DNA of 64,000 nt. It comes from Flavobacterium nackdongense (GTDB lineage: Bacteria; Bacteroidota; Bacteroidia; Flavobacteriales; Flavobacteriaceae). The stretch covers positions 992,001 through 1,056,000 of the forward strand of contig NZ_CP037933.1 of assembly GCF_004355225.1 (NCBI RefSeq), written 5' to 3'. Both the position numbers and the translations under genes were made by a program. The notes under the pieces were generated by a model. It did not search any database, was not told where the DNA came from, and saw nothing but the letters and a program-made list of their open reading frames with translations. Shown one piece after another: positions 34,592 through 50,238 of this stretch. Numbering within the stretch: position 1 is the first letter of the stretch; each line of letters begins with the position of its first letter.

Positions 34592-35434
34592 ATGAAAAAA
34601 ATTATTTTTGTTTTAGCAATGATTATTGCCAATTATGTATCTGAAGCCCAGATAAAAACACCTCAACCCAGCCCAAAGTGTACTTTGAATCAGGTTGTAG
34701 GTTTAACAAATGTTGAAATTGTATATTCAAGGCCGAGTGCCAAAGGCAGAGATGTTTTCAATAATTTAGTTCCTTTCGGAAAATTATGGAGAACAGGAGC
34801 CAACGAAAACACAACTATATCCTTTAGTGAAGATGTTGTTATTGATGGCAAAACCCTACCCAAAGGAAAATATGCACTTTATACTACTCCAAGAGCGGAC
34901 AACTGGGAAATCATTTTCTATACAAAAACAGACAATTGGGGAAATCCAGAAAATTGGGACGAAACAAAAGTAGCCCTGAAAACGAGCGTGAAATCGGAAC
35001 ATATCGATAGAATGGTCGAGAGTTTTACCATAGGGATTAATAATTTAGACAACAATTTTGCACATTTAGAAATCTCTTGGGAAAAAACAATTGTTGCCGT
35101 AAAATTCGAAGTTCCAACGGCAAAAGCAGCAATGGCAAGTATTGACAAGACTTTGGCCGGGCCAACCGCTGGAGACTATTTTTCATCGGCGCAGTATTTG
35201 CAGCAGTCTAACGGCGATATGACAAAAGCCCTTGCTTACATCAACAAAGCGTTAGAAATGAACACCGATAAACCTTTTTGGTACACCCGATTGAAATCGT
35301 TGATTCAAGCCAAACTTGGGGATAAAAAAGGAGCTATCGAAACCGCTAAAATTTCACTCGCTTCCGCAGAAGCTGCCAAGAATCAAGATTATGTAAAAAT
35401 GAACAAGGACAGTATTGCCGAATGGAGTAAATAA
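34592..35434 (+). CDS. Exported DUF2911 protein
   Basis: About 280 residues from ATG 34592. A signal peptide (MKKIIFVLAMIIANYVSEAQ) is followed by a DUF2911 domain: SPKCTLNQVVGLTNVEIVYSRPSAKGRDVF, LVPFGKLWRTGANENTTISFSEDV and a YALYTTPRADNWEIIFY segment, all strongly conserved in this family. The C-terminal 75 residues are helical and TPR-like (ALAYINKALEMNTDKPFWYTRLKSLIQAKLGDK). Widespread in Bacteroidetes; function unknown. Own promoter and terminator. Confidence 0.93.
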   Translation: MKKIIFVLAMIIANYVSEAQIKTPQPSPKCTLNQVVGLTNVEIVYSRPSAKGRDVFNNLVPFGKLWRTGANENTTISFSEDVVIDGKTLPKGKYALYTTPRADNWEIIFYTKTDNWGNPENWDETKVALKTSVKSEHIDRMVESFTIGINNLDNNFAHLEISWEKTIVAVKFEVPTAKAAMASIDKTLAGPTAGDYFSSAQYLQQSNGDMTKALAYINKALEMNTDKPFWYTRLKSLIQAKLGDKKGAIETAKISLASAEAAKNQDYVKMNKDSIAEWSK

Positions 35435-35455
35435 TTATCTTTAAAACTCTGTTAT

Positions 35456-35490
35456 AAACCCTGTTTGGAAAGACCAAACAGGGTTTTTTA
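35456..35490 (+). terminator. Terminator of the DUF2911 gene
   Basis: Perfect 13-bp stem AAACCCTGTTTGG/CCAAACAGGGTTT with a four-base loop and a T run. Confidence 0.93.
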
Positions 35491-35528
35491 TAATTTGAAA
35501 TCTGGCAACATTTGCTCAAATACGGTCA

Positions 35529-35562
35529 TAAAAAAGGGTTCGATTACTCAAACCCTATTTTT
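35529..35562 (-). terminator. Terminator of the ferredoxin-NrfD-cytochrome c operon
   Basis: AGGGTT...AACCCT hairpin; on the minus strand it is followed by six T. Placed just after the stop of the cytochrome c gene. Confidence 0.75.
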
Positions 35563-35582
35563 ATTGTAAAACAAATAAACGA

Positions 35583-35978
35583 CTATTTCATCGTTCTCAT
35601 ATAAGCGACTAATTGCCATATTTCGGCATCACTTAATTTTTCTTTGTAAGATGGCATAGGTTTTCTACCAACTTTAGTGTAATAAAACAATTCACCATCT
35701 GATTTAGATTGAAATTCTTTAGAAGAAAAATCACCACAAGATATATCAATTTTTTCAGCTTTAGGACCATCTCCTAAACCTTTCACCCCGTGACAAGATT
35801 TACAATTTGTGCCCCATAAACCTTTACCAGCGGCAGAATCTGTACCCGAGGGCATTTTTTTGCCAGCATCGGCGGCAGGAACTTTCCACTCTTTACCTTT
35901 TGGTTTTGCTTGAGCGTTAGACGTTTGTGTGAACATAAAGGCTGCAATTAGTGCCAAGCCAAAAAAGATTTTTTTCAT
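35583..35978 (-). CDS. Monoheme class I cytochrome c
   Basis: 131-residue periplasmic cytochrome with signal peptide MKKIFFGLALIAAFMFTQTSNAQ. One haem site CKSCH, and a likely Met ligand in KPMPSYKEKL, with the final helix DAEIWQLVAYMRTMK typical of small c-type cytochromes. It is last in a four-gene minus-strand unit (ferredoxin, NrfD, small membrane protein, cytochrome), so it probably passes electrons between the NrfD complex and a periplasmic or terminal acceptor. Confidence 0.93.
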   Translation of the reverse strand: MKKIFFGLALIAAFMFTQTSNAQAKPKGKEWKVPAADAGKKMPSGTDSAAGKGLWGTNCKSCHGVKGLGDGPKAEKIDISCGDFSSKEFQSKSDGELFYYTKVGRKPMPSYKEKLSDAEIWQLVAYMRTMK

Positions 35979-36016
35979 GTTTTTTCAATTTTAATGTTAA
36001 TACTAGTTTTTAAATG

Positions 36017-36574
36017 TTACTCTTTTATTTCTTGAATTTTTCCCAATCGTTTTATTTTGAAAACTTGCAGAACAGCATATAATAAAGTCCCCCAAATCAA
36101 ACCAATAATTAAAAGTGAAATCGCTATAAAATAAATTGGAGCCTTATCTCTTCCGGCTGAAAAGGAACGCTCTTCGATATTAGAGTTGTCACTACTTACA
36201 ATAACCCCCCAATTTACTAGTCCGCTAGTCTCCGTATTCTTATAGTTTTCGTCATCGACTATACTAGCAAATATAGTTAATTTTCCGTTAGTTGACGGTA
36301 TATCAGCAGGAAATTCGAAGCTGGCAACCCCGGTAGAATCTGTTGCAACTGCATCGCCAATAGGTAACTTAGAATACAATCTTTTTACAGATAATACCAC
36401 AGGCACATCGACGACCGGCTGACCTTCTGAAATAACCGATGCTTTGCACACAAGCAGTGAATCCACCTTTTCAAAAGTCAAAGTAATTTTTGCTTCCTTA
36501 TCTTGAGCGAATGAAGTTGTTATCGAAAACAAAATCATCAAAATGACTGCTAAGAAATAGTTATACTTTTTCAT
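36017..36574 (-). CDS. Membrane-anchored periplasmic protein of the NrfD operon (hypothetical)
   Basis: 185 residues: signal peptide (MKKYNYFLAVILMILFSITTSFAQ), a periplasmic beta-rich domain of about 110 residues resembling an Ig-like or cupredoxin-like fold (KITLTFEKVDSLLVCKASVISEGQPVV...), then one C-terminal membrane helix (APIYFIAISLLIIGLIWGTLLYAV) and a short basic tail. No haem or metal motif. Seven bases from the NrfD gene; likely an accessory or assembly subunit of that complex. Not recognised as a known family. Confidence 0.8.
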   Translation of the reverse strand: MKKYNYFLAVILMILFSITTSFAQDKEAKITLTFEKVDSLLVCKASVISEGQPVVDVPVVLSVKRLYSKLPIGDAVATDSTGVASFEFPADIPSTNGKLTIFASIVDDENYKNTETSGLVNWGVIVSSDNSNIEERSFSAGRDKAPIYFIAISLLIIGLIWGTLLYAVLQVFKIKRLGKIQEIKE

Positions 36575-36581
36575 CTGTACA

Positions 36582-37943
36582 TTATTTATAATTAAATATT
36601 TCTTCTTTTCCTTCTAATTCTCCTTCGGCTACTTCCCAAACTGAAATGATAGGGAAAAATCTAGAAAACAAAGTCACCACAAGAAGCAGTCCGGCAAATG
36701 TTGCTGCAACTACAGTCATTTCAACTGCACTCGGGAAATAATGTGTCCAAGACTTAGGAACATCTTGAATCGGCAAATAAGGATGCAATAAGCCCGGAAT
36801 CACAATCAAATAAAGTCTGAACCAGCCAGCGATCAATACCGCTAAGGAAATTATAGTCAACGGAATTGGCTTTCTCATTTTTGGAAATAAAGGCAATAAG
36901 AACGGAATAATAATTCCAAAAAATACCACTGACCAATAAAATCCAGCTTCTTTTCCAACAAATAGGTTTAAAAGGGTGTTCTCGTGCAAGCCTGACATTT
37001 TATAGGCTGGAATCAAATATTCGTTTACATTGAAGTAGCCGTGAATCAAAGCCATTAAAACCATTGCTTGACCTAATTTATCGAAATGCATTTCGGTTAA
37101 ATATTTTTCTAATTTATAGGCTTTCCTAAAAATAAAAGTAGCCAAAGTCATTACGGCAACACTTAGCAAAAAAGCATTGGATACAAAATAGGCACCAAAA
37201 TTAGTACTATCCCATTCTGCCCTTAGCGTGGTAGCAAACAGCCAAGCGGTTATAGTACAAATAATAACTCCTAACGGAATAACCAAAGCAGTCAAAGTTT
37301 TCATAGTTTTTTTCAAAATGGCCCATTGTTCTGGAGTGCCTTGCCAACCGAATGAGAGCATATTGTACATTTTTAATTGCCATTTTGGCAAGTTCTCCAA
37401 ATGGTTTTTACAGGTGACCAATGAAGGAATTAGGGGTATAAAAAGTAAAATTATGCAGGCAGTCAAATCGGTTGTGATACCGATTACATCCCAAATAATT
37501 GGCGACTGAATGCGACCATACAGGAGTAAATTGATTAATCGATCCGGTCGTCCCATTGCTACGACAATACTTATTCCGCCAAACATTATGGCACCAATAG
37601 CAATAACTTCGGCAATTCTGGAAAGGGGTCGGTACCATTCAAAATTGGTAAGTTTCAATATCGCTGACATTAGCACACCTACCAATCCAATGGCAACCAT
37701 AAAGAGAAAATTGGAAATGTAAATTCCCCACATCGTGTAGTCTCTTAAACTGGTGGTAACATATTTACTTTTGGTTTCCTGAATGATATAGGCTACAACT
37801 CCTGCCATGAAAACAGCGACCAAAAATGCAATCCATAATTTGCCCGCTTTCCCAATCTTTTCAATGGGTCGAAGCAGATCATTCTTCATCACCATGTACT
37901 CCGCTTGTGTAAAGGTTTCGTGTTTATTTATATTTGCTGACAT
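36582..37943 (-). CDS. NrfD/PsrC-type membrane quinone-interacting subunit
   Basis: 453-residue polytopic protein with about ten membrane helices, of the NrfD/polysulfide reductase membrane family. Helices start at about residue 36 (KLWIAFLVAVFMAGVVAYI); GRPDRLINLLLYGRIQSPIIWDVI is the family's conserved loop, and ALIHGYFNVNEYLIPAYKMS lies where quinone-site residues are expected. These subunits oxidise or reduce menaquinone and exchange electrons with a ferredoxin-like partner. It follows the ferredoxin gene by 21 bases. No gene for the usual catalytic molybdopterin subunit is adjacent. Confidence 0.92.
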   Translation of the reverse strand: MSANINKHETFTQAEYMVMKNDLLRPIEKIGKAGKLWIAFLVAVFMAGVVAYIIQETKSKYVTTSLRDYTMWGIYISNFLFMVAIGLVGVLMSAILKLTNFEWYRPLSRIAEVIAIGAIMFGGISIVVAMGRPDRLINLLLYGRIQSPIIWDVIGITTDLTACIILLFIPLIPSLVTCKNHLENLPKWQLKMYNMLSFGWQGTPEQWAILKKTMKTLTALVIPLGVIICTITAWLFATTLRAEWDSTNFGAYFVSNAFLLSVAVMTLATFIFRKAYKLEKYLTEMHFDKLGQAMVLMALIHGYFNVNEYLIPAYKMSGLHENTLLNLFVGKEAGFYWSVVFFGIIIPFLLPLFPKMRKPIPLTIISLAVLIAGWFRLYLIVIPGLLHPYLPIQDVPKSWTHYFPSAVEMTVVAATFAGLLLVVTLFSRFFPIISVWEVAEGELEGKEEIFNYK

Positions 37944-37964
37944 TTTATATACTTTTTAAAATGA

Positions 37965-38900
37965 TTATTCCTTGGTGTTTTGAACTTCGGTGGCATCTTC
38001 AAATGGGAAATCACGTTTCACAGGCGGTAAATAATACACCCTTGGTTTTGTGCCTAATTCTTCAAATTGGCGATATCCAGCTCGGTCTTGCAATAATTTT
38101 TTTAGCCTAACCGTATCTTCTCCATTTGTGACCACATCTTCCAGTTCGTCACCGTGATAAATGGCTCCATTAGGGCATTCAATTACACAAGCAGGCAATA
38201 ATCCTTGCTCGGAACGATCCGTACAAAAATCACATTTCGCAACCGTACCCTCCTGAGCGTAAGGCGTTGTACAATGATTGGGATCGGAAGTATCGTTTTT
38301 ATGCTCTTCGCTATATTTTACTTGTTCAGGTCTACCAAAATTAAAGGTCCTAGCTGAATAAGGACAAGCCGCCATACAGAATTTACAACCGATACAGCGT
38401 TCATAATCCATAGCCACAATTCCATCGGAACGTTTGAAAGTAGCATCAACAGGACACACTTTTGTGCACGGAGGGTTATCGCAATGGTAACACATCGTCG
38501 GAAACCAATACGGAGATTCTAGCGGTGAATTTTGCATCTTTTTCACCTTTATATACTCAATGGGAGCCAAAACATTATGCGCTTTTTGACATCCGGTAAT
38601 ACATTTTCGCTCATTGGCACATTTGCCCAAATCGATAACTCGAATGAATTTCTTTCCAGCCACTCCTTGACGAAGTTCCGCCTTGGAAAAATCATCATTG
38701 GCGGCGTGGTGATCTACTAGAGAACTATCAATTTCTACTAATTTTCCATCGGCAGTAAGCACTTTTACTTTTTTTCCTGTGGCTTTTGGCGTTTCATCAG
38801 TAACAGCGCTAGCAATAGCAGTACCTGCTAGTGCAATTCCTCCTAAAGCGCCTAGCTTTAGAAAATTCCTTCTGGATGAATTGTTATTTTCATTTTCCAT
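37965..38900 (-). CDS. Tat-exported ferredoxin-like electron carrier (four [4Fe-4S] clusters)
   Basis: 311-residue iron-sulfur protein of the NrfC/DmsB/PsrB/DsrO kind. The N-terminus has a twin-arginine signal (SSRRNFLKLGALGGIALAG). Sixteen cluster Cys are arranged in the usual four groups: C..CITGC near residue 100, CYHCDNPPCTKVCP, CIGCKFCMAACPY and CDFC...CVIECP. It should sit on the periplasmic side and pass electrons to or from the NrfD subunit encoded next. The upstream region carries an FNR-like dyad shared with the hexaheme gene. Confidence 0.94.
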   Translation of the reverse strand: MENENNNSSRRNFLKLGALGGIALAGTAIASAVTDETPKATGKKVKVLTADGKLVEIDSSLVDHHAANDDFSKAELRQGVAGKKFIRVIDLGKCANERKCITGCQKAHNVLAPIEYIKVKKMQNSPLESPYWFPTMCYHCDNPPCTKVCPVDATFKRSDGIVAMDYERCIGCKFCMAACPYSARTFNFGRPEQVKYSEEHKNDTSDPNHCTTPYAQEGTVAKCDFCTDRSEQGLLPACVIECPNGAIYHGDELEDVVTNGEDTVRLKKLLQDRAGYRQFEELGTKPRVYYLPPVKRDFPFEDATEVQNTKE

Positions 38901-39117
38901 ATTATTGTATATTACTTTTTAGAAATTCATTGAACAATAAACTATCGTTATGCGTAGCATTCACATTTGAATTCTTATGTAAATTTCCACCTATTTCATC
39001 AAATTTTTAATGATAATTATCATAGTTTTAAATTTTAACAATCTAATATAAAGCGCTCAATACCAATTAAATATCATAATAAATTCAAAACAAGACCAAA
39101 ATCTCTTTTTTAGATTA
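38901..39117. promoter_or_regulatory. Control region of the ferredoxin-NrfD operon
   Basis: AT-rich, no gene. Contains the dyad ATGATAATTATCAT at 39010-39023 and, on the promoter side, GTAAATTT at 38979-38986 (AAATTTAC on the coding strand), 23 bases apart. Confidence 0.6.
39010..39023. promoter_or_regulatory. FNR-like operator dyad, ferredoxin-NrfD operon
   Basis: Perfect palindrome ATGATAATTATCAT; its core TGAT-N4-ATCA matches the Crp/Fnr-family site TTGAT-N4-ATCAA apart from the outermost base of each arm. Centre is about 116 bases before the ATG. Confidence 0.6.
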
Positions 39118-39164
39118 CAAAAAAGAGGATAACTCGTCCTAATGGAAAAAAGCATCCTCTTTTT
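39118..39164 (-). terminator. Terminator after the DUF5777 gene
   Basis: AAAAAGAGGAT...ATCCTCTTTTT stem with a 23-base loop; separates the hexaheme/DUF5777 unit from the ferredoxin-NrfD unit. Confidence 0.72.
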
Positions 39165-39217
39165 CAAATTTAATTGATACCAATTGTAGTTATTTACACA
39201 ATCAGTTTATTAAACAA

Positions 39218-40090
39218 TTACCAAGTTCTTCCAATATTAAATCCGATGGCGAAGTCACCTTCAAAGAAATTATTTTGATTGAACATATTGCTGGTTTGAT
39301 TTATGATTCCTCTGTAATTACTAATGAATATCTGAAAGGTGTGTCCAACGGTCGAGAATTCTGTTCCCACAGCAAAACCGGATTTAGGTAGAACTTCCTG
39401 AGAACTAATGGGTTGATTCACATCTAATACAATCGAAATTCCAGAAGTAACTTTGGCACGACCTCCAAATTCGATAGCAAATAAATCATTACTCATCGGT
39501 GCTTCGACAACATTGTAGTGCGAATAACTTGGTGCAATTTGTAATGAGAACATTTTGTTCAAACGCTTAGCAATAATAATTTGGTTGAAAAAGGACCATC
39601 GATCGGAAGTGTGATAGAAATTTTCTTTAGGTAATGCACTGAGCGAAGCGTTTCCGTAATAGGTAACACTGACAGGCATTTTGCCATTGACCGTTTGTTT
39701 TAAGATAGCTCCTTTAAGATTGAAATCTTGCAATCTAAAATCTTTCGTGGTTCCGTATCCTACAGCAATTCGATCTGTGATAGAATAGGTAACCGCTAAA
39801 CGAATATTGGCGGGAGCCCAAATTCCAATCAAATCATTGGTTCCAGTAACCAGACCAAAACGGTGATTCATAATCATCTCGATAGTCCCTTTTGAATAGA
39901 CACGATCGGTTTGGTTTTCGATCAATGAAGTACTTTCGAAAGCTGCACGCTCGTATTCCACTTCCACTTCAGGTGCAATACTATCTGTTTTTGCAACAGC
40001 AGCAGTATCTTTTTGCTCTTGTGCCAACATCAATGTTGGTAAAGCAAATACAACTATAAATAATGTTTTTAATAATTTCATGATTTTCAA
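39218..40090 (-). CDS. DUF5777 outer-membrane beta-barrel protein
   Basis: 290 residues with a signal peptide (ending LPTLMLAQ). The mature chain is a series of alternating amphipathic strands and ends in a C-terminal aromatic (IGFNIGRTW), as in outer-membrane barrels. It fits DUF5777: MIMNHRFGLVTGTNDLIGIWAPANIRLAVTY and the later GGRAKVTSGISIVLDVNQPIS. Members are often encoded beside cytochromes and YceI-like proteins in Bacteroidetes. It lies seven bases after a monoheme lipoprotein gene and may provide an outer-membrane channel or dock for the haem proteins (inference). Confidence 0.87.
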   Translation of the reverse strand: MKIMKLLKTLFIVVFALPTLMLAQEQKDTAAVAKTDSIAPEVEVEYERAAFESTSLIENQTDRVYSKGTIEMIMNHRFGLVTGTNDLIGIWAPANIRLAVTYSITDRIAVGYGTTKDFRLQDFNLKGAILKQTVNGKMPVSVTYYGNASLSALPKENFYHTSDRWSFFNQIIIAKRLNKMFSLQIAPSYSHYNVVEAPMSNDLFAIEFGGRAKVTSGISIVLDVNQPISSQEVLPKSGFAVGTEFSTVGHTFQIFISNYRGIINQTSNMFNQNNFFEGDFAIGFNIGRTW

Positions 40091-40097
40091 TTTATAG

Positions 40098-40481
40098 TTA
40101 GTTATTAGGCGCGCCAGCGTTTATCCACTTGTCGACCAATGCAATTTTGGAATCACTCCATTTTTGAGCAGGTGGCATTAATGCAGCACCTTCACCTAGA
40201 AGTGATTTATGAAGACTACTAGCAGCAGCATTTCCTGGAATTACATATTTATTGTTTTTGGTTAACGCTAGATATGAGTTAGCAGCGGTTAAATCAGGTG
40301 ATGTCGCAGTTGGTTTATGACAACTAATACAATCTTGATCCCATAAGGGCTGAATATCTTTAGAGTAAGACACTACATCTGGAATCGGAATCTCCGCCTC
40401 TACAGGCATTTCGTCATAGTAACAGGATGTAGCCATTAAACTCGCTGTTAGCATCAATACGTATTGAAATATTTTTTTCAT
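40098..40481 (-). CDS. Monoheme c-type cytochrome lipoprotein
   Basis: 127 residues. Lipoprotein signal MKKIFQYVLMLTASLMATSC, then SYSKDIQPLWDQDCISCHKPTATSPDLTAANSY, one CxxCH site, and LMPPAQKWSDSKIALVDKWINAGAPNN, where the Met is the likely second ligand. This form is typical of the small haem domains of Bacteroidetes and Planctomycetes that accompany larger redox proteins. Followed after seven bases by the DUF5777 barrel gene, so the pair is likely co-transcribed and co-localised at the outer membrane. Confidence 0.92.
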   Translation of the reverse strand: MKKIFQYVLMLTASLMATSCYYDEMPVEAEIPIPDVVSYSKDIQPLWDQDCISCHKPTATSPDLTAANSYLALTKNNKYVIPGNAAASSLHKSLLGEGAALMPPAQKWSDSKIALVDKWINAGAPNN

Positions 40482-40739
40482 ATGTTCCTATTTATTGTTT
40501 TTTAATGGTCATATGTAATTTGCAAATCCTATTTGGTTTTAGCAACCAAGTATTGGTTATGCTCATTTCATCTTTTATTTTTTAATTGAATAATTGCTAT
40601 AAAGTCTTAGGCAACAATTTTCATTGCCAAAGGATTTAAAATGCTGTGAGCAATTGCTAAAGAATGAAAAACTAAATTTCATTTCTTTAGGTCATTAAAA
40701 TGATTACCTCTGAGACCGAATCCCAGAGGTAATTCACTA
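40482..40739. other. Intergenic region with inverted repeats, no gene
   Basis: 258 bases between the hexaheme and monoheme lipoprotein genes. Holds AACCAAGTATTGGTT (40544-40558), GGCAA...TTGCC (40610-40628), AGCAATTGCT (40649-40658) and the hairpin at 40703-40733. These dyads could be operator or RNA-processing sites; none matches a motif I know. Confidence 0.5.
40703..40733 (-). terminator. Hairpin directly after the hexaheme gene
   Basis: ATTACCTCTG...CAGAGGTAAT stem, 10 bp, followed on the minus strand by a weak T-rich stretch. Possible partial terminator setting different levels for hexaheme and monoheme proteins. Confidence 0.6.
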
Positions 40740-42089
40740 TTATTTTAATGCTTCAATTGAGTTTTGAATCAAAGCCATTGTGTACGGTGGGTTGTGCACT
40801 CCTTTACCTTCATCACCAACAATTAATTTATAATTCCAATAGGCTTGTACATATTTTAGAGGGAAATCAGTTCTTGATTGGTACCAAGTTGTTGGAGTAT
40901 TTGTTCCAGAAGCTGGACTTGTTGGGAACGGTGTACCTGTGGTGCTATCAAAAGTTTTAATAGTTACACTTTTAACTCCTGTCGTACTGCTTACAGTTAC
41001 AGTAAAATATGTTGGTTTTGCTTCAAATGCAGCTATTAATTTTGCTACCTCAGTATCGAATTTTGCGTGGAAACTAGTCAATAAAGTTTCTGGCGCCGGG
41101 TGACAAGAAACGCAAGTTTGATAAGAAAGTTTCATAGTATGCGAACCGTTATCTACTGTTCCTGCTTTAGGTTTGTCCATATGACATTGAACACAAGAAG
41201 CATTTGTATAATGTTTAGCAGTTTTGGCAGCTGGTAATCGTGTTGCGGTGCCTTCGATATCAATACCCGTAATTCCCATCCATAAATCACCTTGTTCTGA
41301 AACGTGTACGGCTCGATCTAATGAATTAGAGTAATTTTTGTAATAAGTTGTTCCTGCTGGATAACCTTTAACTGCATCGGCCAATTTCCTTTGAGACCAG
41401 AATCTGTACAAAGGTCCTTTAACTGGGTCGTTAGTTATCACCACAACTCCAGAAGCATCTTTTTCACCACTTTCTATAACAGGTCTTTTGTAATACCCAT
41501 TAGAATCAGGTCTTGTTTGGTGACATCCGATACAAGTATTAGCTGAACTTACACCACCAGTAGGGGAAGCATTCAAAGTAAAGGCTGGATTGATTTTTTG
41601 TGGTACCGCGGCAATGTTTCTTAAACCGTAATCATTACCATCTTTTGCAAAATTAAAGGAACGGTGAGTTACACCGTGGCAACCTTCGCAGGAAATAGAA
41701 CCAAAATTAGCATATCCAGTTGGATTCGGTTTGCCATATTTTTTCACGTCGATATATCCCTCTTGAGAGTGACATTCTGCACAAAAAGCCCTATCACTGT
41801 TTAGTGAGCCATCTGGAAGGACTGTATTGGTGCCATAAATATGTTTTGTAAATGAACCATCCGCATTTTGAATTCCCCGACCATGAACGGACAAATTATA
41901 AGCATCAACAATAGGTTGTTTGTGCTCTACCGAGTGGCATGCTTCACAAGAAGCGGTACCAGAAACTCCAGGCGCACCATCGGCACCATCTTGTCCCGGA
42001 ACAGGAATGTAGTCATCGTGGGAACATCCTTGTAAGGCGAAAAAAAGAAGCCCTAAAACAACTAACCAAGTTTGTGTAACTGTTTTCAT
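40740..42089 (-). CDS. Hexaheme c-type cytochrome lipoprotein
   Basis: 449-residue multihaem cytochrome. The signal ends FFALQGCSHDD (lipobox LQGC), followed by a short collagen-like Gly-x-y stretch (GQDGADGAPGVSG). Six CxxCH sites: CEACH, CAECH, CEGCH, CIGCH, CVQCH and CVSCH, all in the first three-quarters; the last 100 residues are haem-free, beta-rich and end in a helix. This suggests a relative of multihaem reductases or electron-transfer proteins (Nrf/Mcc/Otr-like), but with fewer haems than octahaem enzymes and no Lys-ligated CxxCK site. Upstream DNA carries the FNR-like dyad also present before the ferredoxin gene. Substrate unknown. Confidence 0.9.
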   Translation of the reverse strand: MKTVTQTWLVVLGLLFFALQGCSHDDYIPVPGQDGADGAPGVSGTASCEACHSVEHKQPIVDAYNLSVHGRGIQNADGSFTKHIYGTNTVLPDGSLNSDRAFCAECHSQEGYIDVKKYGKPNPTGYANFGSISCEGCHGVTHRSFNFAKDGNDYGLRNIAAVPQKINPAFTLNASPTGGVSSANTCIGCHQTRPDSNGYYKRPVIESGEKDASGVVVITNDPVKGPLYRFWSQRKLADAVKGYPAGTTYYKNYSNSLDRAVHVSEQGDLWMGITGIDIEGTATRLPAAKTAKHYTNASCVQCHMDKPKAGTVDNGSHTMKLSYQTCVSCHPAPETLLTSFHAKFDTEVAKLIAAFEAKPTYFTVTVSSTTGVKSVTIKTFDSTTGTPFPTSPASGTNTPTTWYQSRTDFPLKYVQAYWNYKLIVGDEGKGVHNPPYTMALIQNSIEALK

Positions 42090-42357
42090 AATTTTGATTG
42101 TTTAATTTAATTCATTTTTCTTAAACTTAACATAATATTAAGATATTTGATGAAGTAAATTTATCAGTTAAATACTTGTAAAAAAATGATATTTATCATA
42201 TTTCAATAAAAAATACAATTTTATCTATTTTCAATAACTGATTGAAAAACAATTAGTTAAATTAAAATATATCAAAAACGAAAACGATTTAGAAAAATAG
42301 TAGTTAAACTCGCTTTTAAAAAACCACATTCAAAATAAAATGTTAAAACATTTAAAC
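42090..42357. promoter_or_regulatory. Control region of the hexaheme cytochrome gene
   Basis: Very AT-rich, no gene. The dyad at 42186-42199 is followed, toward the gene, by a 23-base spacer and GTAAATTT at 42155-42162 (coding-strand TAAATTTAC, a near -7 box). The arrangement equals that of the ferredoxin operon. Confidence 0.6.
42186..42199. promoter_or_regulatory. FNR-like operator dyad, hexaheme gene
   Basis: ATGATATTTATCAT: arms ATGATA and TATCAT with a two-base centre, same as 39010-39023 apart from the centre. Core TGAT-N4-ATCA is Crp/Fnr-like. Centre about 103 bases before the ATG. Confidence 0.6.
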
Positions 42358-42389
42358 AAAAAAAAACTGCCGTAAAAGGCAGTTTTTTT
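42358..42389 (-). terminator. Terminator of the moa cluster
   Basis: AAAAAACTGCC/GGCAGTTTTTT, 11-bp stem with a six-base loop and T runs on either side. Ends the moaCB unit and isolates the cytochrome control region. Confidence 0.9.
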
Positions 42390-42409
42390 GAACTATGCAG
42401 CAATACCTA

Positions 42410-43321
42410 CTAATCGTGTTGTTTTCCATCAGCTACTCTAAAAATGTGCAGTAAGGACGGAAATAAAGCGTCCATAGATTCCTGAGCGCCCTTGGTCGAA
42501 CCAGGCAAAGTCAAAATCAGTGTTTTACCTTTCATTCCGGCAACACCTCTGGATAACATCGAAAAAGGAGTGCGATCTTGACCATAATTGCGTGCGGCTT
42601 CCATAATTCCCGGAATTTCTCGATCTAAAAGCGGTTTTATGGCCTCAGGCGAATTATCTCTTGGCGAAAGCCCTGTTCCTCCTGTCAATATTATAAGGTC
42701 TACTTTTTGAGCGTATAAATCCAAAACTTTGTTCTGAATCCCTTCTGTATCATCCGAAATGATCGAATAATCGCTAATACCAACATTGCAGGATTCTAAT
42801 TTTTGAATGATGGCTTTACCGGCTCGATCGAATTTTTTTCCGGCTGAAATACTATCGGAACAAACAATCACTGCCGCCATCAAATCGGTGCGGTATTTAT
42901 CGGTAAAATCGGATTTGCCCCCTTTTTTCTCCAATAATTTAATGGCGTGAATTTCGATGCCTTTATCGATAGGTTTCAACATATCGTACATTGTGAGCGC
43001 CACCACCGATGCGCCGTGCATTGCCTCTACTTCTACTCCTGTCTTATATATAGTATGCACTTCGACTTCGATTGTAATTTCTAAGTCCGCAATCGTGTAA
43101 TTTACAGCCGTAAATTCAACAGGAATGGGATGACAATCCGGAATCATATCACTAGTGCGTTTTACAGCAAAGAGTCCGGCGGTTTTAGCCATTTCCAGAA
43201 CATCTCCTTTGGGAACCGTTTTATTGACAATGGCATCAATGGTTTCTTTTTTACTGACTTTTAGAATGGCTTGCGCCTTTGCAACGCGAAGCGTGCTTGA
43301 TTTGAATGTTATATTGACCAT
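42410..43321 (-). CDS. moaCB: MoaC-MogA/MoaB fusion, molybdenum cofactor biosynthesis
   Basis: 303-residue bifunctional protein. Residues about 1-155 are MoaC (cyclic pyranopterin monophosphate synthase): DCHPIPVEF and [21 protein letters not shown], then a Lys-rich loop [11 protein letters not shown]. Residues about 160-303 are the MogA/MoaB adenylyltransferase: [29 protein letters not shown], GRxx-type tail and [17 protein letters not shown]. The fusion links an early and a late step of the pathway in one chain and is known in some Bacteroidetes. A six-unit heptamer array precedes its start. Confidence 0.95.
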
Positions 43322-43327
43322 AGGAAC

Positions 43328-43369
43328 TTTGTAGTTTGTGGTTTGTGGTTTGTGGTTTGTGGTTTGTGG
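43328..43369. repeat. Heptamer array (TTTGTGG) upstream of moaCB
   Basis: Six tandem seven-base units (TTTGTAG then five TTTGTGG on the plus strand), ending seven bases before the moaCB start codon, so it is in the 5' leader. The same unit recurs in degenerate form before tcdA (59340-59367). Confidence 0.92.
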
Positions 43370-43425
43370 TTAAGTTTATGTTTATGTTTACGTTAGTAAT
43401 TGAAAGTTAGAAGATTAAGCCATAG

Positions 43426-43445
43426 CCAACGGTTTCAACCGTTGG
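43426..43445. repeat. Palindrome CCAACGGTTTCAACCGTTGG
   Basis: Perfect palindrome between moaE and moaCB. Compared with the (reverse-complemented) copy at 23884-23903 it differs at base 3 and at the paired base 18, so pairing is preserved. Confidence 0.85.
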
Positions 43446-43475
43446 TTGATTGGTTGGTTGGTTGTTAAAAATCAA

Positions 43476-43922
43476 TTAAAGCTGATTTTCTTTCCAAACA
43501 AAAGAATCATCTTCGAAAATTTCTTTTCCCCAGATGGGTGTCATCGCTTTTATTTGCTCTACAATATCCTGACAGGCTTCGAAGGCTACTTTGCGGTGTT
43601 TGGATGAAACAAATACAAACAGGCAAATTTCACCCGCTTTTACCACACCAAGGCTGTGATAAATATGCATACACACTAAATTGTATTTGGCAAACGCAGC
43701 CTCTCTGATTTCGTGCATAAGTTCATCGGCCATTTCCTGATAGGCTTCATAGTGGATAGCAACCACTGTTTTATCCTCAATTACATCGCTTCGGACTTGT
43801 CCTAAAAAGATATCGTGGGCTCCAATGTCGGTTTTTGTGCTGTGTTTGGAAATGCTATTGGCAATAAACTCCGGTGTTATGGGTCCATTGATGAATACGT
43901 TGTGTTTTTTTTTCTCTTTCAT
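43476..43922 (-). CDS. moaE: MoaE, molybdopterin synthase catalytic subunit
   Basis: 148-residue large subunit of molybdopterin synthase, which adds two sulfur atoms to cyclic pyranopterin monophosphate with sulfur carried by MoaD. Family features: GAHDIFLGQVRSDVIEDKTVVAIHYEAYQEMAD, HIYHSLGVVKAGEICLFVFVSSKHRKVAFEACQDIVEQIK (active-site Lys/Arg region) and PIWGKEIFEDDSFVWKEN. Three bases from the moeB-like gene, so co-transcribed. Confidence 0.96.
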   Translation of the reverse strand: MKEKKKHNVFINGPITPEFIANSISKHSTKTDIGAHDIFLGQVRSDVIEDKTVVAIHYEAYQEMADELMHEIREAAFAKYNLVCMHIYHSLGVVKAGEICLFVFVSSKHRKVAFEACQDIVEQIKAMTPIWGKEIFEDDSFVWKENQL

Positions 43923-43925
43923 TTT

Positions 43926-45041
43926 TTAATTTTTAATTTTCCATTCATCGATACCTCCTTTTAAATTAAAGGCTTGACAATTTGGATATTTTTCTTTCAT
44001 TATTTTAATCGCTTTTGCACTTCGTTGGCCTGATTTACAAAAGACTACTATTTTATTTTCGATTGGAATTGTTGCTATTAAATTTTCAAATGCACTCAAT
44101 GGAATTAAGGTAAAAGGAAATTCGTCCACTTCAGGAAGTTCTCCTTTTTCACGAACATCGATTATGGTGATTCTTTCGTTTTTCCTAAGAATATCAAATT
44201 CTTCGACAGAAAGACTTTCAACATCGGAATTGGAGTTGCAAAACCATTCATAATTAAAGGCTAAAAAATGGTCTTTGCTTTTTGGAAAATCAATAGATGG
44301 GTTTGAATTTGCGGCAATTTCAAAATCGTAAAAAGAATTTTCCAAAGCGTTGTATGAAATTATTTTATTGGTCAATGGTTTGCCAACACCAGTAATGATT
44401 TTCAGCGCTTCAGCGGCTTGCATTGTTCCAATAATGCCGGGAATCACGCCCAAAACCCCTACTTCGTTACAAGAAATGGCTGTTGCCGAATCGGGAGGTT
44501 TTGGAAATAAATCACGGTAATTGGTTTTACAATTACCTTCATTATCCAAAAAATTAAAAACCCCAATTTGCCCTTCAAAACGCAAAACAGCTCCGTAAAC
44601 TAAAGGTTTTTCGAGAAGTATACAAGCGTCATTGACAAGATATCTAGTGGCAAAATTATCGGAACCATCGATTATAATATCATAGTTTTGTAAAATTTCA
44701 AGTGCATTTTTATTGGTAATTTGTACAGTATAAGTTTCAATTTTAATTTGCGGATTGAGCGCTTCAATTTTTTTCGCCGCTGTACTTGCTTTTGATTGAC
44801 CAATATCAACCACTGTGTACAGAATTTGACGTTGCAGGTTTGACATTTCGACCACATCAAAATCGACAATACCAATCGTTCCCACACCAGCGGCAGCAAG
44901 GTATTGCAAGGCAGGGCAACCCAAACCGCCTGCGCCAATTACCAGTACTTTTGCCTTAGTAATTTTGTCCTGACCTGCTTGCCCAATTTCCTTGAGTTGA
45001 ATTTGTCTTTGGTATCTGTTATGACTGCTTGCTTTGTTCAT
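43926..45041 (-). CDS. MoeB/ThiF-type adenylyltransferase fused to rhodanese domain
   Basis: 371 residues. The N-terminal E1-like part (about 1-250) activates the MoaD C-terminus: RYQRQIQLKEIG, VLVIGAGGLGCPALQYLAAAGVG (ATP loop), DFDVVEMSNLQRQILY (Asp and Arg), DGSDNFATRYLVNDAC. The two CxxC pairs usual in MoeB are not evident. The C-terminal rhodanese part (about 270-371) has the active Cys loop VFCKSGQRSAKAI and should supply the sulfur. Domain order matches MOCS3/MoeBR proteins, so it can adenylate and sulfurate MoaD in one chain. Neighbours moaE and moaD support this role. Confidence 0.93.
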   Translation of the reverse strand: MNKASSHNRYQRQIQLKEIGQAGQDKITKAKVLVIGAGGLGCPALQYLAAAGVGTIGIVDFDVVEMSNLQRQILYTVVDIGQSKASTAAKKIEALNPQIKIETYTVQITNKNALEILQNYDIIIDGSDNFATRYLVNDACILLEKPLVYGAVLRFEGQIGVFNFLDNEGNCKTNYRDLFPKPPDSATAISCNEVGVLGVIPGIIGTMQAAEALKIITGVGKPLTNKIISYNALENSFYDFEIAANSNPSIDFPKSKDHFLAFNYEWFCNSNSDVESLSVEEFDILRKNERITIIDVREKGELPEVDEFPFTLIPLSAFENLIATIPIENKIVVFCKSGQRSAKAIKIMKEKYPNCQAFNLKGGIDEWKIKN

Positions 45042-45055
45042 TTTATTTATTTTTA

Positions 45056-45110
45056 AACCATTAAGAAAATTAAGTTTTTTGCTTAATAAACCTTATTTTC
45101 CTTAATGGTT
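45056..45110. repeat. Long imperfect hairpin repeat (AACCATTAAG arms)
   Basis: AACCATTAAGAAAATTAAG at the left pairs with CTTATTTTCCTTAATGGTT at the right around an 18-base loop that itself contains TTAA-rich repeats. It lies between moaD and the moeB-like gene. Looks like a dispersed palindromic repeat or attenuating hairpin. Confidence 0.7.
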
Positions 45111-45122
45111 AATAAGAAATTT

Positions 45123-45356
45123 TTACCCTCCTGAAAATGGCGGAAGTAAAGCTATCGTATCTTTATCACTGATTATAGTATTCGTTTGAACTACTTTTTT
45201 ATTTACCGCTATTGAATATTTCATTTTGACCAAAGCGGGAAACTCTTCCTCTAATTTTTGTATCAAAGCATTTGTATCCTCCACTTCTGAAATTTTCCAG
45301 GTCGATTTGCCTGTAATCTCGGCAATTTGTCCAAAGGCAAGTAGGTTTATTTCCAT
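45123..45356 (-). CDS. moaD: MoaD, molybdopterin synthase sulfur-carrier subunit
   Basis: 77-residue ubiquitin-like sulfur carrier. It ends in the required Gly-Gly (ALLPPFSGG), the site of adenylation and thiocarboxylate formation; the start VNLLAFGQIAEITG-type strand and VAVNKKVV segment match the family. One base after the mobA stop codon and 81 bases before the moeB-like gene that activates it. Confidence 0.94.
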   Translation of the reverse strand: MEINLLAFGQIAEITGKSTWKISEVEDTNALIQKLEEEFPALVKMKYSIAVNKKVVQTNTIISDKDTIALLPPFSGG

Positions 45357-45357
45357 T

Positions 45358-45948
45358 TTAAATTCGGTTTAATGCGTTGTTTAAATCCTCTTTTGTATTG
45401 ATGTTTTTAAAAAAAGAGGTTGCAAAAATCTCATTGTTTTCAACCGGAATGGTCTTCAACTGGAAGCGCAACACCATTTCCTGCAATTTAATCACTTTTT
45501 GTTCCATAAGTTCCAACCAAATTGGCTCACAATCTTTGGCATAAATTCCAAATAAAGGTTCGATTCTAGCTTTATTTTCAAGCAAAACAATTTGTGATTC
45601 TTCGCTATTTTTAATTACAAATTCTATCGCTGCTGCAGTTACAAAAGGCATATCGCAACTCACCATAAAATTCAATTTCGTATCAGAATGATTCAAAGCT
45701 GTATAAATTCCGCCTGCCGGGCCACTATCTTTTATCAAATCTGGAATCACTTCGAATCCAAATTTTTCGTATTCAGGATTATTAGAAACAATAACTACTT
45801 TACTAAAAATAGGCTGCATTTGCTCGATGACATATTGAATCATTGGTTTTCCTTCAAAGAGCAGTAAGCCTTTATCGGTTCCCATTCGGGAGCTTTTGCC
45901 ACCAGCCAGAATATAGCCGGTTATGTCTTTTAGATTGGTTTTCATCAT
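45358..45948 (-). CDS. mobA: MobA, molybdenum cofactor guanylyltransferase
   Basis: 196-residue nucleotidyltransferase that adds GMP to molybdopterin, making the guanine dinucleotide form used by DMSO-reductase-type enzymes. The signature GYILAGGKSSRMGTDKGLL is at the N-terminus; IPDLIKDSGPAGGIYTAL and VSCDMPFVT (metal-binding Asp) follow. Its presence implies that the cell makes a bis-MGD enzyme, but none is encoded in this window. The start overlaps the stop of the TauE-like gene by one base. Confidence 0.95.
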   Translation of the reverse strand: MMKTNLKDITGYILAGGKSSRMGTDKGLLLFEGKPMIQYVIEQMQPIFSKVVIVSNNPEYEKFGFEVIPDLIKDSGPAGGIYTALNHSDTKLNFMVSCDMPFVTAAAIEFVIKNSEESQIVLLENKARIEPLFGIYAKDCEPIWLELMEQKVIKLQEMVLRFQLKTIPVENNEIFATSFFKNINTKEDLNNALNRI

Positions 45949-46679
45949 CAGGTGAAAATTAATTTTATGGAAGCGAGCAGCAATACCATTGCCAATATTT
46001 TATTCAAAAAGGCATTTTTAAATCTATTGGCACCAAAATAAGAACCCGTAATTCCGCCTATTAATGCCAGGACCACCATCCATCCCATTTCGGTTGTAAA
46101 TTCAAATCCTTTGGTCAGAAGTCCTGCAAAACCTGCAATTGAATTTACAAAAATGAACAAAGCCGAAACTGCAGCGGTTTTTTTCATATCTGCCCAGTGC
46201 ATCAACAAAATAATGGGACTTAAAATAATCCCGCCGCCAATGCCTATCATTCCTGAAAACAATCCGATGATGGCCCCGATCAAAAGTGCTAAAAAGACAT
46301 TTTGTTTCAGATCGAATTTGGCAGTTTTGAATGGAATCCCCAATAATCGCACTATCGAAAACAACAACAACACTGCTAATATTTTTTTGTACCAGCCCGC
46401 ATCGACCGTAATCATTCCGCCAATAAAAGCGGCAGGAAAAGAAGCTAACGCAAAGGGCCAAAACAAATTCCACTTAAAAAAACCAGCACGATAATATTGA
46501 ATAAACGCAATTAAGGAAACAAAAATATTGAGCAACAAAGCTGTTGGTTTCATCGTTTCTGGGGCAAAGGAAAATAAAGCCATTAAGGCCAAATAACCGC
46601 TTGCGCCACCGTGTCCCACCGAAGAGTAGAGAAAAGCAACGAGAACGAGTAACACATAAAATATAATTTCTAAATACAT
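45948..46679 (-). CDS. TauE/SafE-family membrane transporter
   Basis: About 243 residues from ATG 46679, with seven or eight membrane segments. The start YVLLVLVAFLYSSVGHGGASGYLALMALF and the repeated half GLFSGMIGIGGGIILSPIILL are the paired glycine motifs of the TauE/SafE/DUF81 family (sulfite, sulfonate or other anion export). It lies between a ModE-like regulator and mobA, overlapping mobA, so its job is tied to molybdenum or sulfur handling. Whether it moves sulfite, or molybdate or another oxyanion, is not known; no ModABC genes are present here. Confidence 0.88.
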   Translation of the reverse strand: MYLEIIFYVLLVLVAFLYSSVGHGGASGYLALMALFSFAPETMKPTALLLNIFVSLIAFIQYYRAGFFKWNLFWPFALASFPAAFIGGMITVDAGWYKKILAVLLLFSIVRLLGIPFKTAKFDLKQNVFLALLIGAIIGLFSGMIGIGGGIILSPIILLMHWADMKKTAAVSALFIFVNSIAGFAGLLTKGFEFTTEMGWMVVLALIGGITGSYFGANRFKNAFLNKILAMVLLLASIKLIFT

Positions 46680-46681
46680 CC

Positions 46682-47014
46682 TTAAATAGTTTTGCAAATT
46701 TGTGTTTTAAATGCTTCGAAAGCGGCATTCAACTTGATGTAACAAGCGATCAATTCCTCACCTTCTTTTGTAACCACAGTGCCGCCACCACTGGAACCAC
46801 CCGTATTTTTTACCACCAAAGGAGCGTCTGCAATGGCATTCATTTTTTTGATCATTTCCCAAGCGTGCCGATACGAGATTTTCATTTCAGTTGCCGCTGC
46901 TTTGATAGAACCCGTTTCCCTGATTTTTTCAAGCAATTCTTTTTTGCCCATTCCCATCAAATGGCCTTTGCTGTTTTCTATCGAAAGATGTCCTTTTATT
47001 ATTAAATTTTTCAT
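46682..47014 (-). CDS. ModE-type DNA-binding regulator (HTH only)
   Basis: 110-residue winged-helix protein like the N-terminal half of ModE: GKKELLEKIRETGSIKAAATEMKISYRHAWEMIKKMNAI, then VVKNTGGSSGGGTVVTKEGEELIACYIKL, as in LysR-type N-terminal domains. It lacks the C-terminal TOBE domains that sense molybdate in E. coli ModE, so how it senses metal is unclear. It directly precedes the TauE-like gene with two bases between, and probably controls the cluster. Confidence 0.9.
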   Translation of the reverse strand: MKNLIIKGHLSIENSKGHLMGMGKKELLEKIRETGSIKAAATEMKISYRHAWEMIKKMNAIADAPLVVKNTGGSSGGGTVVTKEGEELIACYIKLNAAFEAFKTQICKTI

Positions 47015-47061
47015 TTTAAAAATTTATCATTATTATATTTGAACTTGAATGTTATTAAAAA

Positions 47062-47224
47062 ATTTAAACCACATAGAAAAAGTATCTTTATTTTATTGAA
47101 AGACGCTTTGCTTATACATAGCCTTCATAGCTATGAGTAAATAAAATGCCTATGACTTTAGCGAAGCGAACTGATAAAGTAAAATCTATGTTAATTATAT
47201 TTACAAAAATCTATGTGGCTAAAA
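47062..47224. repeat. MITE-like repeat with CCACATAG ends, copy 1
   Basis: About 155-bp element bounded by TTTAAACCACATAG (left) and CTATGTGGCT (right), between moeA and the ModE-like gene. Its core CATAGCTATGAGTAAATAAAATGCCTATG (47126-47154) occurs as the reverse complement, 28 of 29 bases, in the element at 62127-62300. No open frame. Confidence 0.8.
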
Positions 47225-47244
47225 AAATTTACTTTAAAGACGCT

Positions 47245-48420
47245 TTATAAAATCATTCTCACATTAACCAAATCCCCTTTTTTGAAATTCTCACCTTCTT
47301 CACTAAATTCGATTAGGCAATCTGCCACAGCAAAAGAATTGAGTTTATAACTTTCTTGATTGTTCAAAACCATCACATTATTTTCTCCCATTTTTCCTTT
47401 TAAAAAGAACGTAAGACCTGCTTTTTTATTAAAATCTTCAGCCAATGGCAATGCCATTTTCTTAAAATATTCTTTGTGTGTAAAACTGCTGATCGCCTGA
47501 ACCACATATTCATAAAAACAACTCATTACCGCCGCAGGATTTCCGGGTAAAGCAAATACAAGCGTTTGATTGTGACGTCCAAAATAAAAGGGTTTACCTG
47601 GTTTTTGTTTGATTTTATGAAATATTTTTTGAACCCCACATTTTCCTAACGAAGCGGGAACCAAATCATAATCGCCTACCGAAACACCACCTGTAAGAAT
47701 CAGAATATCGGAACTCAATTGTTTCGAAATGGCTTTTTCAATTTCTTCTTCAACATCATCGACCACTTCAACCGAAACAGGGTTTATCCCTAATTGTTGT
47801 AAGGCAGCAATCAGACCAATGGAATTCGATTCGAAAATTTTACCTTCTGAAATTTCATCATTTGCCCCAGCAAGTTCTTTGCCGGTTACAATAATACTGA
47901 CCGTTGGTTTCGAAAATACGTTTACTTTAGTAATACCAATTCCTGCTAAAAACGAAATCGCAACGGGTGTTACTAATTGTTGTTCTTGCAAGGCCATTTC
48001 TCCCTTTTTTGTTTGTGAACCTTGGGGGCGAACGTTCGTTCCCGAGACCAATGAAGCATCCAGAATTTGAATCGAATTTCCATCGCGATTGACTTTTTCC
48101 TGCATCACCACCGTATCTGTTCCCGGTGGAATTGGAGCTCCTGTATAAATTCGTACCGCTTGATTGGATTCTACTATTTTATCCGAATAATTCCCAGTTT
48201 GAATTTCGCCAATAACCGTCAATTTGCTTTTTTGATCCCAGTTTTCGAAGGAAAAAGCATAACCATCCATCGCCGACTGATCAAAGGGTGGCGTGTCTAT
48301 TACTGCATAAATAGGTTCGGCCAAAATGCTCCCATTGGCTTCAAGCAGGCTCAAGGTTACTACTTTCGATGCACAGCAATTTTCGTCTATTAGCTGTTTG
48401 GCTTCTTTTACATTTATCAT
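47245..48420 (-). CDS. moeA: MoeA, molybdenum insertion protein
   Basis: 391-residue molybdopterin molybdotransferase. Recognisable parts: VIDTPPFDQSAMDGYAF at the N-terminus, IYTGAPIPPGTDTVVMQE, then the adenylate-hydrolysing domain IVTGKELAGANDEI, ILTGGVSVGDYDL and FGRHNQTLVFALPGNPAAVMSCFYEYV. Inserts molybdate into adenylated molybdopterin made by the MogA part of MoaCB. It follows moaA after 56 bases in the same direction and is separated from the ModE-like gene by the repeat element. Confidence 0.96.
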   Translation of the reverse strand: MINVKEAKQLIDENCCASKVVTLSLLEANGSILAEPIYAVIDTPPFDQSAMDGYAFSFENWDQKSKLTVIGEIQTGNYSDKIVESNQAVRIYTGAPIPPGTDTVVMQEKVNRDGNSIQILDASLVSGTNVRPQGSQTKKGEMALQEQQLVTPVAISFLAGIGITKVNVFSKPTVSIIVTGKELAGANDEISEGKIFESNSIGLIAALQQLGINPVSVEVVDDVEEEIEKAISKQLSSDILILTGGVSVGDYDLVPASLGKCGVQKIFHKIKQKPGKPFYFGRHNQTLVFALPGNPAAVMSCFYEYVVQAISSFTHKEYFKKMALPLAEDFNKKAGLTFFLKGKMGENNVMVLNNQESYKLNSFAVADCLIEFSEEGENFKKGDLVNVRMIL

Positions 48421-48476
48421 TTTTATATTTATTTTCGATATGCCAAAAAAGGAATAACGGTGTTCAAAAAAAAGGC

Positions 48477-49457: not shown

Positions 49458-49680
49458 ATTCAATTATTTTGTTTCTTGGCAATGCATTGGGTTTAGCAGT
49501 ATAGCAAGCCCATCTATTTGGAGTCAAATTTAAGGTATTATTTTTTCATTCATTCGACCTGCTTGCCATTTTTCAAAGAAATGCACTAAGTATTCTTGAA
49601 AAATCAAAAAAAACTAAAAATCAATCTATTTATTTCACAAATGATAATTTAACCAAAATTCAGATTACCATAAAAAAATA

Positions 49681-49734: not shown

Positions 49735-50238
49735 CTATGTAAAAATAATTTGGGTTCTATCGCCGTCACATAATTCGTAAAATTCCCCAATGGTAATGAT
49801 GTCTTTCACCTCATCCGAAAAATCGTCTTTAGTCAATTTGAACATATCCACGGCAAGTTTACAAGCATAAATCGAACCTCCACCAGCAGTAATCATTTCC
49901 AGAAATTCATCTACCGGAGGCATTCCCAATTCTTCCATTTGCTTTCTCATCATACTTGAAACCGCCGATTCTACGCCAGGCAATCCGCCAAGCATTGTTG
50001 GAAAAGGAATTCCTCCCGGCATTTTCATCGCGGGGTTACCTGTTGTGGCTGTATGCAAATGATTCATCGATTTTTTGGTAATTCCTTCAAGTCCAAAAAA
50101 GGTAAAAAACACATTAGTTTCTATTCCTTCCATAACAGCTCCGTTGGCCATAACTAGCGCTGCATACACATCTTCTAAATTACCTTTAGCACAAATAATA
50201 CAAACTTTTTCTAAAGGTTTTTTTTCTTTAATTTCCAT
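49735..50238 (-). CDS. DsrE/F-like sulfur-transfer protein
   Basis: 167-residue member of the DsrE/DsrF/TusD superfamily, DsrE2-like branch. It starts VCIICAKGNLEDVYAALVMANGA and contains a glycine/proline-rich loop GNPAMKMPGGIPFPTMLGGLPG and ITAGGGSIYACKLAVDMF, where the conserved Cys are candidates for persulfide binding. Such proteins hand sulfur between SQR, rhodanese/TusA and TusE-type partners. It is last in the unit after TusE-like and SQR genes, so a sulfide-oxidation or sulfur-relay role is likely. Confidence 0.88.
   Translation of the reverse strand: MEIKEKKPLEKVCIICAKGNLEDVYAALVMANGAVMEGIETNVFFTFFGLEGITKKSMNHLHTATTGNPAMKMPGGIPFPTMLGGLPGVESAVSSMMRKQMEELGMPPVDEFLEMITAGGGSIYACKLAVDMFKLTKDDFSDEVKDIITIGEFYELCDGDRTQIIFT

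Follow-up and report, generated by a model that had tools for sequence, protein, structure and literature searches.

We analysed the promoters of two electron-transfer units in a 64 kb stretch of Flavobacterium nackdongense DNA (the window, positions 992001-1056000 of a single 4.217 Mb contig). The units lie on the minus strand, one encoding a ferredoxin, an NrfD-family membrane protein and a cytochrome, and the other a hexaheme cytochrome and a membrane beta-barrel protein. Both are probably co-activated at low oxygen by P0001, an FNR-like protein of the Crp/Fnr family, at class II-type promoters. One shared regulator had been proposed in the original prediction, made from the sequence of the window, and is likely, because the same layout of dyad and promoter box precedes both units, is kept by close relatives, and also precedes genes of low-oxygen respiration.

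Upstream of each unit, the 14-base dyad ATGATA-N2-TATCAT (minus strand, 39010-39023 and 42186-42199) is followed 23 bases on by AAATTTAC (38979-38986 and 42155-42162). Re-reading of the window sequence bore out these coordinates and the spacing at both promoters, and dyads of the TGAT-N4-ATCA type, the basis of the proposed Crp/Fnr link, are present at both. Written with the 12-base dyad, the order is TGATAATTATCA-N23-GAAATTTA-C upstream of the ferredoxin gene start at 38900 and TGATAAATATCA-N23-TAAATTTA-C upstream of the hexaheme gene start at 42089, with the common pattern TGATA-N2-TATCA, 23 bases, then [G/T]AAATTTA. The exact composite occurs at two places only in the window, namely these two promoters. 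Dyads with up to two mismatches number eight in the window against 5.5 expected, which is the chance level, so the signal is carried by near-perfect dyads only.

The available text of a Flavobacterium psychrophilum study places the main sigma factor box of that species, TAnnTTTG, at -12 to -5 (PMC9723704). The original prediction held that neither promoter has a standard TAnnTTTG box, a statement that is not supported and comes from reading the element one base off: one base upstream of the element as first described, GAAATTTA and TAAATTTA stand in the right place and can be read as degenerate TAnnTTTG boxes. Both keep A2 and the TTT of the box; GAAATTTA misses positions 1 and 8, and TAAATTTA misses position 8. 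They share their register with TATCTTTG, TACTTTTG, TAACTTTG and TATATTTG of other promoters in the set. With the box at -12 to -5, as that text gives it, a gap of 23 would place the 12-base dyad at -47 to -36, centred at -41.5, in agreement with the class II geometry originally suggested; a gap of 22 would move the centre to -40.5. An Escherichia coli-type sigma-70 promoter was rejected, since its matches across 35300-42500 numbered 29 against 25.0 expected.

The layout is well kept at close orthologues. Our test set comprised 13 ferredoxin and 12 multiheme promoters, counting those of the window, after look-alike loci had been merged (L089 with L101, L090 with L105). The exact composite was present in 11 of the 13 and 8 of the 12, respectively, with a gap of 23 in all. 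Isolates that retain the layout include F. alvei HR-AY (L098) and F. fluvii DSM 19978 (L107). Of the two ferredoxin loci that lack it, L127 has no composite within 420 bases and L106 has no site before the ferredoxin gene; the cluster of L106 does have TGATATATATCA-N23-TATATTTG ahead of its first gene, a site that was counted among the multiheme promoters. The four inexact multiheme promoters have one mismatch (L100, L104) or two (L084, L149), all at gap 23. Averaged over the 11 exact ferredoxin promoters, the majority fraction reaches 0.97 for the dyad and 0.98 for the box, compared with 0.69 for the spacer and 0.71-0.73 for the flanks; across the eight multiheme promoters the values are 0.97 and 0.88, compared with 0.64 for both spacer and flanks. 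When gaps of 10-36 were allowed in the 25 orthologue stretches, which are related and hence not independent trials, 19 matches fell at gap 23 and one at gap 10. Among 50,000 stretches simulated with a first-order Markov model, 83 held a dyad and none held the composite.

The genome as a whole gave a similar picture. The 14-base dyad occurs 10 times, against once for a reversed control, and its 12-base core, TGATANNTATCA, 19 times against six. A relaxed box, [TG]AnnTTT[GA], follows 12 of the 19 core dyads at gap 22 (three) or 23 (nine), on one strand each; the remaining gaps between 8 and 38 yielded three matches over both strands. This relaxed box was set after the finding had been seen, and the orthologue promoters and the strict-box spacing counts in other genomes are the less dependent tests. 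A strict TAnnTTTG box stands at gap 22 or 23 from seven of the 19 core dyads, neither promoter of the finding being among them. Five core dyads lie inside open reading frames (ORFs) of at least 100 residues and none of these has a box at either gap; of the 14 outside such ORFs, 12 have one and those at 270129 and 323462 do not. Each of the 12 boxed sites is followed within 350 bases by the start of an ORF of at least 90 residues.

Besides the ferredoxin and hexaheme units, the genes that follow these 12 sites are pckA, hemN, a ccoN-type oxidase gene and a VorB/KorA-like 2-oxoacid oxidoreductase gene (all four with family matches over cut-off), a ThrE-like exporter gene, an EF-G2-like gene (fusA2; best match NF058620, below cut-off, ORF cut by the locus edge), a gene for a ccoI-like P-type ATPase (cut by the locus edge, below cut-offs), a hemA-like gene (by eye), a gene without a family match (L192) and a short ORF at 732708. 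A class I fumarase gene is preceded by an imperfect dyad, TGATATAAATCA, with a strict box at gap 23. The hemN, cco and ccoI-like genes and the P0001 gene cluster at 1317665-1329269. Roughly 1.8 kb past the window end, TGATATATATCA-N23-GAAATTTG precedes the EF-G2-like gene (L006, G000:C1:1056345-1059358; NF058620 EFG2_Bacteroid).

The preference for a gap of 23 recurs in other genomes. With the strict box and gaps of 8-38, 40 genomes (own included) gave 82 matches, of which 43 fell at gap 23, 12 at 22 and three at 24, with the remaining 24 spread over 28 gaps; the reversed control gave 12. A scan of 197 genomes of the class at gaps of 16-30 yielded 98 matches (42 at gap 23, 16 at 22, nine at 24 and 31 over the other 12 gaps), against nine for the reversed control, and 136 of the 197 had none. 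Genomes labelled only as belonging to the same class contributed 80 matches, 29 of them at gap 23 across 23 genomes. The claim that equal spacing at the two promoters is unlikely to be chance is borne out by this peak and by the simulated stretches. At 29 loci from the 40-genome scan (L054-L082), sites at gaps 22-24 precede, among others, hemN (L070, L072), cco genes (L069, L071), nirK (L082), feoB-like genes (L058, L060, L066, of which L060 alone was checked against Pfam) and universal stress protein genes (L062, judged by eye, and L057, which was tested).

As to the signal, ccoN, ccoI-like genes and hemN are typical low-oxygen targets. The original prediction had left the choice between oxygen and nitrogen oxides open, and oxygen is favoured because these three are the other targets; for nitrogen oxides there is nirK, which carries the layout in one relative (L082). 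In F. psychrophilum, according to the accessible part of the study, the cbb3 oxidase is strongly up and heme biosynthesis enzymes are up under oxygen limitation (PMC9723704), a response that fits the gene set, though in another species.

The likely activator of both promoters, judged from sequence, is P0001, a 228-residue protein (G000:C1:1328583-1329269) with cNMP-binding and Crp-type helix-turn-helix domains. Its gene and the ccoI-like gene are divergently oriented, and a core dyad lies between them. The best model match is the NCBIfam Fnr model PRK11161, and Cys4, Cys7 and Cys106 align with cysteines of a solved FNR (9qlt); FNR has three N-terminal cysteines and one core cysteine, whereas P0001 matches two of the N-terminal set and the core one. 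At positions 4, 7, 53 and 106, 29 relatives read CCCC in 26 cases, -CCC in two (which depends on the chosen start codons) and EIVT in one. Cys53 thereby covaries with the other cysteines in 28 of 29, and may serve as a cluster ligand. Cys29 is present in 16 of the 29. In the paralogue crp2, position 53 is a phenylalanine and the N-terminal cysteines number three. We call P0001 FNR-like rather than FNR because a defining cysteine is absent and the NCBIfam Fnr cut-off is missed.

At a threshold of at least 40% identity, a P0001 orthologue is present in 28 of the 40 genomes. A strict site at gap 22-24 occurs in 22 of these 28 and in 1 of the 12 without an orthologue (Fisher, 5e-5), in a comparison that includes the own genome and ignores phylogeny; within the genus the corresponding fractions are 18/22 and 1/3. 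In 13 of the 28 genomes, a site lies within 15 kb of the orthologue gene.

The promoters themselves resemble FNR and CRP class II promoters in their TGAT-N4-ATCA dyad, in the fixed distance from dyad to sigma box (gap 23 in 19/25 orthologue stretches) and in targets such as cbb3 oxidase and hemN. The FNR core is TTGAT-N4-ATCAA, whereas the core here is TGATANNTATCA, and the flavobacterial TAnnTTTG replaces TATAAT. In the mechanism we favour, a P0001 dimer on TGATANNTATCA, centred at a predicted -41.5, would contact the main RNA polymerase and so offset the weak boxes GAAATTTA and TAAATTTA. As oxygen falls, the ferredoxin-NrfD-cytochrome module and the multiheme-cytochrome/beta-barrel module would then be made together.

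Several observations weigh against activation of both units by P0001, beginning with the make-up of the co-occurrence comparison just described. Six of the 28 orthologue-bearing genomes lack a strict site and one orthologue-free genome has one. Only 4 of 29 cases have a TGAT-N4-ATCA dyad in the 250 bases before the P0001 orthologue, so self-regulation is no general rule. The residue of P0001 at the third N-terminal FNR cysteine is a serine, Cys53 aligns with an alanine of FNR, and the score on the NCBIfam Fnr model is 95.5 bits against a cut-off of 228. Seven proteins of the genome match PF13545, four of them, all of the Crp/Fnr family, over the Pfam cut-off. Neither box of the two promoters matches the strict TAnnTTTG. 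Lastly, among the best 80 of 258 ferredoxin relatives from a scan of named genomes, 11 have at least 86% identity to the ferredoxin, and the 69 loci below this level have no composite directly before the ferredoxin gene, although some of them have little upstream DNA.

Two of these distant loci, L147 and L161, carry the composite before the first gene of the cluster. In L161 (2044-6984), from a metagenome-assembled genome (MAG) of Lentimicrobiaceae, TGATATATATCA-N23-TATTTTTA lies between an FNR-like gene and a divergently oriented run of cytochrome-DUF5777-heptaheme-ferredoxin-NrfD genes (box counted by eye). The predicted control is thus kept within the Flavobacterium clade but occurs only sporadically elsewhere; the expectation of a motif conserved upstream of orthologous operons therefore holds for close orthologues and mostly fails for more distant ones. 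Three further loci have ATGATTTTAATCAT some 360-380 bases before the ferredoxin gene (L135 919, L145 253, L148 2539), possibly another Crp/Fnr operator.

With four Crp/Fnr-family proteins over the cut-off, and with sites alike across the family, a paralogue could read the dyads, namely crp2 (at 310871, near a nitrate-reductase-like ORF) or crp3 (P0002, at 1713058), the signal then being nitrate, nitrite or nitric oxide rather than oxygen. The FNR-like N-terminal cysteine set of crp2 and the nirK site in L082 would suit this reading. We consider it unlikely: the 3.2 kb locus around crp2 has no TGAT-N4-ATCA dyad, the upstream region of crp3 holds a different dyad, TGATTCTAATCA, and the core dyad stands between the P0001 and ccoI-like genes and before ccoN and hemN. 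The sites also track the P0001 orthologue, a co-occurrence computed for P0001 only. Upstream of crp3, each side of TGATTCTAATCA has a strict TAnnTTTG box 24 bases away (G000:C1:1712516-1712591; L017, L018), and this dyad is perhaps a second operator type.

Flavobacteriales Crp-Fnr homologues are treated as MalR-like in the available text of PMC8510549. The regulator could function like BT4338, the MalR/Cur-type Crp/Fnr-family protein of Bacteroides, so that the set would answer carbon or energy state instead of oxygen. In Bacteroides thetaiotaomicron, the accessible part of PMC6989115 gives fusA2 as the top target of BT4338 and carbon limitation as the signal. The composite before the EF-G2-like gene, the presence of pckA in the set and one distant P0001 relative without the cysteines (L221) agree with this, yet the cysteines are retained in 28 of 29 relatives and ccoN, the ccoI-like gene and hemN point to low oxygen. 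The BT4338 consensus given there, wwwTATGTTnTAnAACATAwww, also differs from TGATANNTATCA, on which ground a BT4338-type operator was rejected, and we regard a carbon or energy signal as quite improbable.

Repression from the dyad, which would then block the promoter, is very doubtful. A box-like AAAATTTG does lie three bases past the dyad of the ferredoxin promoter, but it is not conserved in the orthologue promoters tested, whereas the gap-23 box is, and -41.5 is an activating class II position; a repressor site was rejected on these grounds. Chance likeness in AT-rich DNA has next to no probability and was rejected, for although the regions are AT-rich and two-mismatch dyads in the window are at chance level, the exact composite in 19 of 25 (related) orthologue stretches against none of the simulated ones, and the peak at 23 elsewhere, speak against it. 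Activation by P0001 at low oxygen is the reading we retain, and the elements it predicts are given in Table 1 with the genes of the two units.

Table 1. Genes of the two electron-transfer units and predicted promoter elements, in window coordinates (aa, amino acids; nt, nucleotides)
Feature	Position	Strand	Remarks
Dyad TGATAAATATCA, hexaheme unit	42187..42198	-	Predicted activator site, putative centre -41.5; exact in 8/12 orthologue promoters
TAAATTTA, hexaheme unit	42156..42163	-	Degenerate TAnnTTTG box, predicted -12 to -5; 23 bases past dyad
Predicted transcription start (A), hexaheme unit	42151	-	62 nt leader; placed from the box position in the available text of PMC9723704
Hexaheme cytochrome	40740..42089	-	449 aa; six CxxCH; lipoprotein-like N-terminus by eye
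Protein with one CxxCH	40098..40481	-	127 aa; cytochrome matches weak, below cut-offs
DUF5777 membrane beta-barrel protein	39218..40090	-	
Dyad TGATAATTATCA, ferredoxin unit	39011..39022	-	Predicted activator site, putative centre -41.5; exact in 11/13 orthologue promoters
GAAATTTA, ferredoxin unit	38980..38987	-	Degenerate TAnnTTTG box, predicted -12 to -5; next base C
Predicted transcription start (A), ferredoxin unit	38975	-	75 nt leader; placed as for the hexaheme unit (PMC9723704)
Periplasmic-type ferredoxin	37965..38900	-	311 aa; DsrO/TtrB-like; below NCBIfam cut-offs
NrfD-family membrane protein	36582..37943	-	453 aa; best solved match Alternative Complex III subunit C
Protein without family match	36017..36574	-	185 aa
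Monoheme cytochrome c	35583..35978	-	131 aa

Close relatives share the gene order, which is partly preserved at distant loci; the number of hemes encoded by the first gene is variable. Among 150 genomes of the genus, the own genome counted, 11 have the ferredoxin and four the hexaheme protein, which found no match among solved chains. The terminator scan listed a hairpin behind the hexaheme gene (40733-40703), which may mean that the first unit in the direction of transcription in part ends early; it found none between the DUF5777 gene and the ferredoxin promoter. A long-loop hairpin followed by T runs, absent from that scan, can be seen by eye in this interval at 39121-39170. The NrfD protein is closest to subunit C of Alternative Complex III (6btm_C, 1.4e-41) and the ferredoxin resembles the Fe-S part of subunit B, but the ORFs of 35583-42089 comprise this 311-residue ferredoxin and one NrfD, with no ActB-size subunit and no second NrfD, and membership of that complex was rejected. 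To judge from the encoded proteins, the units may form a quinol-linked route by which electrons reach a surface cytochrome.

Upstream of the hexaheme unit, a gene run at 42410-49463 resembles molybdenum cofactor synthesis by eye, and loci L103 and L107 have other genes in its place. Farther on, 50596-51903 encodes a type III sulfide:quinone reductase (NCBIfam selenoprotein subtype, 635.9 bits, cut-off 525), adjoined by a DsrE2-like protein, below cut-off, at 49735-50238.

No description of a flavobacterial FNR-type regulon turned up in the literature searched, which is not proof of absence as one may be in print elsewhere, nor did any publication on DUF5777. A tentative and broader proposal is that Bacteroidota have an oxygen regulator type of their own, FNR-like with a relocated Fe-S ligand (Cys4, Cys7, Cys53, Cys106), which would control TAnnTTTG promoters from TGATA-N2-TATCA sites at -41.5. 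Such a regulator would tie two electron-transfer systems, a reduced quinol module of the ActC type and a multiheme/beta-barrel electron conduit in the outer membrane, to cbb3 respiration, heme synthesis and the alternative translation factor EF-G2. The analysis yields a precise promoter rule (TGATANNTATCA, 23 bases, TAnnTTTG) and a candidate regulator with an unusual cysteine set. There is also a hint that Crp/Fnr-family control of fusA2, shown in Bacteroides in the accessible part of PMC6989115, reaches flavobacteria via another operator. For the organism, the predicted gene set would place two uncharacterised electron-transfer units among low-oxygen genes.

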